A stretch of 64,000 nt of DNA from a virus. This document shows, piece after piece, positions 24,837-47,410 of this stretch. Made by a program: the position numbers and the translations under genes. A model generated the notes under the pieces. That model was given only the letters and a program-made list of their open reading frames with translations, was not told the DNA's origin and searched no databases. Each line of letters opens with the position of its first letter. Position 1 is the stretch's first letter. Where the stretch lies: positions 1-64,000 of IMG/VR virus record IMGVR_UViG_3300042341_001202; one strand, given 5' to 3'.

Positions 24837-24908
24837 GCGCATCTGGCTGAGAAGGGAAGCACACCCTTGATAAGGGTGGAGAGGCAGGGGCAGTACCTGC
24901 GGTGCGCA
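24837..24908 (+). tRNA. tRNA-Ile (GAT), non-canonical T-loop
   Basis: Acceptor GCGCATC/GGTGCGC, anticodon loop TTGATAA, T-stem GCAGG/CCTGC with loop GGCAGTA (G at 54 and 55 instead of T and pseudouridine). CCA encoded. Confidence 0.85.
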
Positions 24909-24926
24909 CCAAGTTAAGAATATAAT

Positions 24927-24998
24927 GGGGCATGGGCAAGGTACCCGGAGGATCTTTGCAAGATCCTAGCCTGATCGGCGCGATACCGATATGCTCCA
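24927..24998 (+). tRNA. tRNA-Ala (TGC), non-canonical
   Basis: Acceptor GGGGCAT/ATGCTCC, anticodon loop TTTGCAA in a 6-bp stem, T-loop CGCGATA (G55). The D-arm is unusual (GGG...CCC directly after the acceptor). CCA encoded. Confidence 0.75.
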
Positions 24999-25006
24999 CC
25001 AATTGT

Positions 25007-25077
25007 AGGTCGCTGGTGAATTAGTATCACGTTGAGCTCCAACCTCAAAGTGCCGGGGGCGGTACCTGGGTGGCCTG
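25007..25077 (+). tRNA. tRNA-Trp (CCA), non-canonical T-loop
   Basis: Acceptor AGGTCGC/GTGGCCT with wobble pairs, anticodon loop CTCCAAC, discriminator G as in bacterial Trp tRNAs, T-loop GGCGGTA (G55), CCA encoded. Could also be the tRNA that reads the UGA in the release factor gene. Confidence 0.82.
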
Positions 25078-25102
25078 CCAACTATTCTCTCAACCAACAA
25101 TT

Positions 25103-25208
25103 GCCATCGAGGTTGGAACAGCCTCCCAACACACCATGAGAATGGTAACTAGCCGGCAGCAATCACCTAGCTGGTGAAGAAATCCGGAAGTGGCATCCGG
25201 CGATGGCG
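25103..25208 (+). tRNA. tRNA-like gene with anticodon-loop insertion (Leu candidate)
   Basis: Acceptor GCCATCG/CGATGGC (perfect), D-stem GTTG/CAAC, anticodon stem CACC/GGTG, T-stem CCGGA/TCCGG with loop AGTGGCA. Between the anticodon-stem strands lie 37 bases instead of 7, including a GAGA-capped hairpin (ACCAT/ATGGT). Removing about 30 bases gives a loop with anticodon GAG or TAG, both Leu. The variable region is short (about 7). Confidence 0.5.
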
Positions 25209-29135: not shown

Positions 29136-29295
29136 GCCGGATTAGCTCATTTGGTAGAGCAATTGATTTTTCCGTGGCGGGATAATGCCACCAACTGGTG
29201 AATAAATTTACCAGTTGTTTGTGGGCAACACTGGCCTAAAGCCAGTACGCCAAATGGTAATCAATAGGTGGTCAGTTCGAAACTGACATCCGGCA
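29136..29295 (+). tRNA. tRNA-Thr with 87-base insertion in the anticodon loop
   Basis: Canonical outside the loop: acceptor GCCGGAT/ATCCGGC, D-stem GCTC/GAGC, anticodon stem ATTGA/TCAAT, variable 5, T-loop TTCGAAA, CCA encoded. The loop spans 29167-29260 (94 bases). Removing 87 bases leaves TTTGTAA (TGT) or TTGGTAA (GGT); both mean Thr. The insertion holds hairpins GTGGC/GCCAC, AACTGGT/ACCAGTT and ACTGGC/GCCAGT. Confidence 0.75.
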
Positions 29296-29317
29296 CCATA
29301 ATTGAAAGGCAGCAACA

Positions 29318-30259: not shown

Positions 30260-30330
30260 GCAGGTATGGTGTAATAGGAACTCAGTGCGTTGCCAACGCA
30301 CAGTCGCCGGAGCGTTACCGGCTACCTGCT
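30260..30330 (+). tRNA. tRNA-Gly (GCC), non-canonical T-loop
   Basis: Acceptor GCAGGTA/TACCTGC, anticodon stem GTGCG/CGCAC with loop TTGCCAA, T-stem GCCGG/CCGGC with loop AGCGTTA (G55), discriminator T, CCA encoded. Confidence 0.87.
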
Positions 30331-30381
30331 CCAAACTTCCTTCTGTAAATATCCCAAACTGTTTACAGAAAGGACAAAAAA

Positions 30382-40200: not shown

Positions 40201-40321
40201 GGATCCGTGGTCTAATTGGATAAGGCAAGAGCCTTCCGGTCCCGCAGGTAGCATTCAAGGTTCGAATCCTTGGGGACCGCTCCTAAGCTCTTCGATGGGG
40301 GTTCGAATCCCTCCGGGTCCG
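40201..40321 (+). tRNA. tRNA-Arg with a 47-base tRNA-like minihelix in the anticodon loop
   Basis: Acceptor GGATCCG/CGGGTCC, D-stem GTC/GGC, anticodon stem AGAGC/GCTCT, variable 5, T-loop TTCGAAT, discriminator G, CCA encoded. The loop is 54 bases (40233-40286). Removing 40237-40283 leaves CTTCTAA, anticodon TCT (Arg). The insert is a 7-bp stem CGGTCCC/GGGACCG stacked on a T-arm CAAGG/CCTTG with loop TTCGAAT, like an acceptor-T minihelix. Confidence 0.78.
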
Positions 40322-40356
40322 CCACTTACTACACTCTTATAAAAGAACCCAACCTA

Positions 40357-47268: not shown

Positions 47269-47339
47269 GGCCCCATAAGACAAAGGTAGTCAGCTGGACT
47301 CTAAATCCAGTGGTGTGAGTTCAAATCTCACTGGTGCCA
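47269..47339 (+). tRNA. Amber suppressor tRNA (anticodon CTA)
   Basis: Acceptor GGCCCCA/TGGTGCC (one C-T mismatch), anticodon stem CTGGA/TCCAG with loop CTCTAAA, so anticodon CUA reads UAG. T-loop TTCAAAT, discriminator A, CCA encoded. Own promoter and terminator. Charging amino acid cannot be read from sequence. Confidence 0.83.
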
Positions 47340-47410
47340 CCAAAAGTTTACAAAAAGGTTTTCAAACAAAATAATGACCTAGGTTTCACACAAGTTTGAA
47401 CTTTTCTTTG

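Follow-up and report, generated by a model that had tools for sequence, protein, structure and literature searches.

The stretch of DNA analysed here (the window: 64,000 nucleotides from the start of the 148-kb IMG/VR record IMGVR_UViG_3300042341_001202) comes from a T4-related jumbo phage and contains two interrupted tRNA genes, one for Thr and one for Arg. Their parts are as follows.

29136..29298 (+): tRNA-Thr(UGU) gene with an interrupted anticodon loop, encoded ACCA included (ARAGORN with introns; custom detector)
29136..29169 (+): Thr 5' exon, with the acceptor strand, D arm, 5' strand of the anticodon stem and U32 U33 U34
29170..29256 (+): Thr insert, 87 nt, between positions 34 and 35; no Rfam match
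29174..29180 (+): acceptor-like 5' strand of the Thr insert, GUGGCGG, of which UGGCG pairs with CGCCA
29193..29216 (+): middle hairpin of the Thr insert, AACUGGUGAAUAAAUUUACCAGUU, assigned from the fold
29230..29246 (+): T-arm-like hairpin of the Thr insert, ACUGG CCUAAAG CCAGU (5 bp and a 7-nt loop)
29247..29256 (+): acceptor-like 3' strand and A-rich tail of the Thr insert, ACGCCAAAUG
29257..29298 (+): Thr 3' exon, with G35 U36 A37 A38, the 3' strand of the anticodon stem, variable loop, T arm, acceptor strand and ACCA
40201..40324 (+): tRNA-Arg(UCU), the second interrupted tRNA gene of the window (ARAGORN and Rfam)
40237..40283 (+): nested mini-tRNA in the Arg gene, exactly filling its interruption at 35/36

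The DNA polymerase of this phage matches PHROG 262, and its portal protein shares ~50% identity with the portal of Pseudomonas phage PA5oct and 48% with the one of Agrobacterium phage Atu_ph07. A second record of the same phage (G001) spans 309,756 bp, position in G001 being window position minus 76. The region with the Thr gene is unchanged in four IMG/VR records, and 20.6 kb are identical between the window, G001 and two more; this identity across three further records argues that the interruption is not a one-off assembly error. All tRNAs called by ARAGORN in this genome lie within ~21.7-47.3 kb of the window, and ARAGORN found no further tRNA-Thr in the 310-kb genome, leaving the interrupted gene as the sole one.

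Several other features of this tRNA region deserve mention. ARAGORN missed tRNAs at 24837-24911 and 30260-30333, whose T loops (GGCAGUA and AGCGUUA) lack UUCRA, as well as similar genes in relatives (L098, L099, L105, L109 and L111; T loops AUCGUAA and AGCGUAA), as if the 54-58 pair had been swapped. Two more tRNA-like stretches, with anticodons UGC and CCA and odd T loops, were seen by eye in 24927-25080, where neither ARAGORN nor Rfam made a call. A Skipping-rope RNA (RF02924, 44.5 bits) lies at 25102-25208, and a tRNA with a CUA anticodon at 47269-47342, labelled Pyl by ARAGORN, is possibly a UAG suppressor. No tRNA was detected in G007 (328 kb) and G013 (223 kb), the records of L026 and L034, which have the identical DNA polymerase.

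With introns off, ARAGORN returned nothing at 29136-29298; with introns allowed, it called a tRNA-Thr over exactly this interval, its anticodon loop interrupted by an insert of 87 nt. Every stem is paired (acceptor 7/7, D, anticodon AUUGA/UCAAU 5/5 across the insert, and T) and the 3' end reads ACCA, in agreement with the canonical arms described in the original prediction, and the 94 nt it had counted between the two anticodon-stem strands were recovered by both ARAGORN with introns and our custom detector. Removal of 29170-29256 leaves a 76-nt tRNA with a 7-nt loop, UUUGUAA, and the anticodon UGU, which fits Thr. ARAGORN called this spliced 76-mer tRNA-Thr(tgt). The proposed splice points after 29169 and 29256 are correct for anticodon TGT and, as anticipated, the Thr isotype would survive. 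Two registers had been put forward, TGT and a one-base shift to GGT. The intact tRNAs closest to the exons by similarity are mostly Thr(tgt), which places the split at 34/35 (UUU|GUAA) and disfavours the GGU register.

The Thr gene with its insert folds far more stably than shuffled sequences (z = -5.5; z = -3.6 for the insert region alone). In the predicted fold U-A pairs lengthen the anticodon stem, beyond which come a bulge and more helices. The insert does have hairpins of its own, as had been noted. No Rfam family, group I introns and ribozymes included, matched the insert even at a relaxed E-value; at 87 nt and coreless, it is indeed too small for a group I core. We found no evidence for self-splicing and none for the suggestion that the insert acts as a maturation switch. 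DNA searches of cultured phages, of DNA-polymerase relatives and of the phage's own genome retrieved no homologue of the insert beyond the tRNA halves, nor was a diverged homologue found in these sets.

The interruption of the Arg gene, whose closest intact relatives are Arg(tct), has a clearer organization. Its mini-tRNA consists of CGGUCCC, a 12-nt linker with GGUA, the T arm CAAGG UUCGAAU CCUUG, GGGACCG and a tail, CUCC, which is a degenerate NCCA. Pairing is perfect in both the acceptor (7/7) and T (5/5) stems, both ends are flush with the splice points, and 11 nt separate the T arm (5 bp, 7-nt loop) from the 3' splice point.

We surveyed other phages with a strict detector requiring 7-nt acceptor strands, a D arm, a 5-bp anticodon stem, a T arm, U33 and R37. 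This phage and its relatives (1.24 Mb) yielded 112 ordinary tRNAs and 9 with anticodon-loop inserts, and three dinucleotide-shuffled versions of the same set (3.7 Mb) yielded no insert-bearing tRNA. Pattern scans of IMG/VR gave at least 53 insert candidates in 5.5 Mb and none in shuffles. A loose ARAGORN scan, which at low thresholds called many introns falsely, was left out of the counts, as were doubtful intron calls in relatives (L098:3903, L098:14430, L103:16008 and L105:1169). Altogether, the viral contigs hold at least 30 distinct inserts in the anticodon loop, 40-123 nt long, and the same positions within the loop recur across many phages. Four of the candidates from the pattern scans (L430, L451, L482 and L533) are group I-sized inserts of 202-236 nt in the anticodon loops of phage tRNAs, with group I-like signs in their sequence, and tRNA-Gly(GCC) and tRNA-Asn of other phages carry simple hairpin inserts.

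Among the 30 distinct inserts listed, 15 consist of a nested tRNA or mini-tRNA flush with the splice points, where shuffling predicts 0.18, and perfectly paired nested units were found in 12 (0.002 expected). In these units, 7-nt acceptor strands enclose a T arm and are followed by a 4-nt tail, mostly ACCA or GCCA, and then directly by the second exon; some Asn inserts have the nested form with degenerate ends. Once the flush inserts are taken out, the anticodon loop is again 7 nt long, has T33 and R37 and carries an anticodon that fits; examples are CUUUUAA (Lys), CUUCUAA (Arg), CUGUUAA (Asn) and CUUAUAA (Ile). Complete nested tRNAs with canonical anticodon arms occur as Asn within Lys (L397) and Phe within Arg (L138), other units keep the D arm and have odd anticodon arms (L404 and L562), and the mini-tRNAs are reduced to acceptor stem and T arm with a linker of 9-15 nt (L147, L318, L446 and the window's Arg gene). 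Several of these linkers contain a GGUA-like stretch, a putative remnant of the D loop. The inserts show a stepwise loss of the D and anticodon arms with the acceptor/T minihelix retained. What remains is the portion that RNase P and RNase Z read, and this is our main argument that the minihelix would serve as a processing handle.

The same pattern applied to GTDB genomes retrieved loop inserts that were nearly all archaeal and mainly of the known 37/38 type, with no nested geometry among them. This control indicates that the detector finds real introns and that nesting is not its artefact. Four representative nested-tRNA queries found no match in cultured phages. Neither nested tRNAs as introns nor small phage tRNA introns were described in the open-access papers searched. 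Our results suggest that the nested inserts are a previously undescribed kind of tRNA intron, a claim of newness that would apply to tRNA-in-tRNA inserts as a class and for which absence from the literature is no proof. By all features tested other than an exact NCCA, the Arg gene of the window falls into this class, and the Thr gene does so only in part. The suggestion that the Thr insert may represent a new small intron class holds up; the insert is one of many in the anticodon loops of large phages, half of which are nested tRNAs or mini-tRNAs.

The Thr insert departs from the exact nested geometry because of a 4-nt leader, UUCC, the lack of NCCA and a non-canonical T-like loop, CCUAAAG. 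No 7-bp acceptor stem starts at its 5' splice point, the only acceptor-like pairing being UGGCG/CGCCA, inside the insert after the leader, and its tail at the 3' splice point is AAUG rather than NCCA. Its T-arm-like hairpin lies 10 nt from the 3' junction, compared with 11 nt in exact nested tRNAs. A 5-bp/7-nt hairpin with a 5-bp outer stem placed in this way occurred in 0.065% of shuffles, a post hoc figure since the pattern had already been seen. The Thr insert thus looks like an eroded, expanded relative of the nested tRNA and mini-tRNA inserts, and it is probably descended from a nested tRNA.

An interrupted tRNA-Asn found in 14 contigs (including L290, L405, L412, L443, L454, L486 and L704-L709) has a 58-nt loop that is more conserved than its exons, its sequence being near-invariant among close relatives (L290, L412, L405 and others). 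The anticodon stem across this insert changes from UGCGG/CCGCA to UUCGG/CCGAA and the T stem from GGGGG/CCCUC to GAAGG/CCUUC, in both cases with pairing kept, as it is in the acceptor stem, which is also altered. These compensatory changes indicate that this tRNA is maintained. Either constraint or spread could account for how strongly the insert is conserved.

Distinct from the loop inserts, a family of phage inserts of 42-51 nt interrupts the anticodon stem in its 5' strand. Common to its members is a hairpin in which 6 of 7 pairs show compensatory changes, with ACAGCAA after it; they occur in many isotypes, with several per phage found by a model of the family (R1). They are present in L118, L123, L143, L166, L182, L194, L195, L198, L226, L232 and L315 and in the cultured phages Aeh1, PX29, Ah1, phiAS5, QD01 (a Vibrio phage; L715) and BUCT-ZZ01 (a Synechococcus phage; L716). 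One site lies at ~96384-96680 of Aeromonas phage Aeh1 (AY266303; L188), and the genes concerned in Aeh1 and PX29 are annotated as tRNA-Val and as joined tRNA-Leu. The parts of the 2006 Aeh1 paper that we consulted make no mention of inserts in its tRNAs (PMC1524935). This family looks like an undescribed class of tRNA intron. Model R1 had no match in the window, and membership of the Thr insert in this family was rejected on that ground.

Processing of a nested unit would involve both bacterial and phage enzymes. RNase P and RNase Z recognise a tRNA by its acceptor and T stems. After cleavage by RNase P the leader ends in a 3'-OH, and after cleavage by RNase Z or RNase E the trailer starts with a 5'-phosphate, the two ends that ligases of the Rnl1/Rnl2 type require. 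T4-type RNA ligases are common in T4-like phages. This phage encodes an Rnl1 (PF09511; G001:210664-211245) and a second RNA ligase (PF09414; G001:203093-203668). The archaeal-type (EndA-type) splicing endonuclease PF01974 was absent from G001, with positive controls in four archaea, and RtcB was absent from this phage; both were consequently rejected as splicing enzymes of the phage's own. Of the 15 records of 100 kb or more that carry an insert, 13 had an RNA ligase above the cut-off and two had none, compared with a ligase in 10 of 20 control records without a visible insert (p = 0.026), a comparison confounded by incomplete contigs and shared lineages. Since Rnl1 is also carried by G007, which has the identical polymerase and no detected tRNAs, this enrichment is suggestive only. 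In T4, Pnkp heals the ends of tRNAs broken in the anticodon loop and Rnl1 then seals the halves (PMC3400036); Thermotoga maritima RNase Z cuts directly 3' of an encoded CCA, and RNase E is able to produce the CCA end directly (PMC7479834).

From the inserts, the nested geometry and the ligase genes, all read from the sequence, we infer excision and ligation and the enzymes responsible. A tRNA, or a mini-tRNA of acceptor and T arm, would have landed in an anticodon loop and become an intron-like element. In the intact class, RNase P would cut at the 5' end of the nested element, leaving exon 1 with a 3'-OH, RNase Z or RNase E would cut 3' of the NCCA tail, leaving exon 2 with a 5'-phosphate, and the T4-type ligase of the phage would join the exons. 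No kinase or phosphatase would be needed, as RNase P and RNase Z already leave a 3'-OH and a 5'-phosphate. In the eroded Thr insert, another nuclease may be required on the 5' side. We tentatively interpret the Thr insert as an intron-like element of this origin, derived from a nested tRNA or mini-tRNA, removed by end processing and sealed by a phage ligase. The wider reading, that large phages carry tRNA-in-tRNA introns of which the Thr insert would be a late stage, in the phage's only source of tRNA-Thr, is one to which we give slightly less than even credence.

It is somewhat unlikely that the Thr insert is a true intron of other than tRNA descent, either a small self-splicing or self-cleaving RNA or the target of a host or phage nuclease that reads the extended anticodon stem and bulges. 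Its strong fold, with the U-A-extended stem, bulge and further helices, its geometry, which is not flush, and the precedent of hairpin inserts in phage tRNA-Gly(GCC) and tRNA-Asn would all suit such an element, but no Rfam ribozyme matched, half of the comparable inserts are clearly nested tRNAs, and the phage lacks the splicing-endonuclease family. A degenerate group I or archaeal-type intron is extremely improbable. Although a final G in the insert and a final U in exon 1 recall group I introns, and group I-like inserts of 202-236 nt occur in other phages (L430, L533 and L482), the Thr insert has neither the size nor the core nor an Rfam match; likewise, archaeal introns are picked up by the same search pattern but are never nested, and the Thr site is 34/35, not 37/38, in a phage without PF01974.

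The remaining explanations dispense with splicing altogether. Decay of the tRNA gene, with the insert as a mobile element and no tRNA made, is distinctly unlikely: the 58-nt Asn loop does outlast its surrounding tRNA in conservation, as a mobile element might, but the four stems of the Thr gene are intact and its anticodon suits its body, compensatory changes hold the stems of the interrupted Asn gene paired, and identical loop positions recur in many phages. Very unlikely, too, is a role for the unspliced RNA, with its long anticodon arm, as a tRNA-shaped decoy or regulator, for example for host anticodon nucleases. One proposed function of phage tRNAs is to counteract defences that cleave tRNAs (PMC10264068), and the whole RNA is stably folded around the extended arm; a decoy, however, needs no exact 7-nt loop, which flush nested tRNAs restore in 15 of the 30 listed cases.

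To our knowledge, tRNA introns known so far either splice themselves (group I, rarely group II) or belong to the archaeal/eukaryal type removed by a dedicated endonuclease. If correct, end processing of nested tRNAs would constitute a third route of tRNA splicing, combining bacterial end-processing enzymes with a phage ligase, and would extend the role of T4-type RNA ligases beyond repair. It would also account for the phage tRNAs that tRNA finders miss or mis-call, as happened to the window's Thr gene with introns off, and would provide a testable picture for the origin of new introns.

Compared with known systems, the Thr insert resembles the group I introns of bacterial and phage tRNA genes in its anticodon-loop site, for which 34/35 is possible, and in leaving a normal loop after removal, whereas group I introns exceed 200 nt and have a conserved catalytic core; a search of the insert for the P3-P8 core gave no Rfam match even at a relaxed E-value. 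With archaeal and eukaryal tRNA introns, which are removed by a protein enzyme and sealed by a ligase, it shares its small size, its structure and its position near the anticodon. Those introns, however, usually lie at 37/38 and need an EndA-type endonuclease, while the phage site is 34/35 and PF01974 is lacking; by eye, the Thr fold has bulges near the junctions and no clean 3-4-3 bulge-helix-bulge motif, and the archaeal-type hits of the GTDB search were never nested tRNAs, as phage inserts often are. In the T4 Pnkp/Rnl1 repair of PrrC-cut tRNA-Lys a phage ligase likewise seals a break in the anticodon loop (PMC3400036), and Rnl1 is present here too, but that system repairs damage by the host, excises no insert and uses a kinase/phosphatase, which the proposed model does without. 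Finally, tRNA genes in tandem or in clusters, whose processing is by RNase P and RNase Z/E, have in common with the nested units an acceptor/T minihelix with RCCA as the recognised unit; what sets the phage units apart is that they lie inside the anticodon loop of another tRNA.
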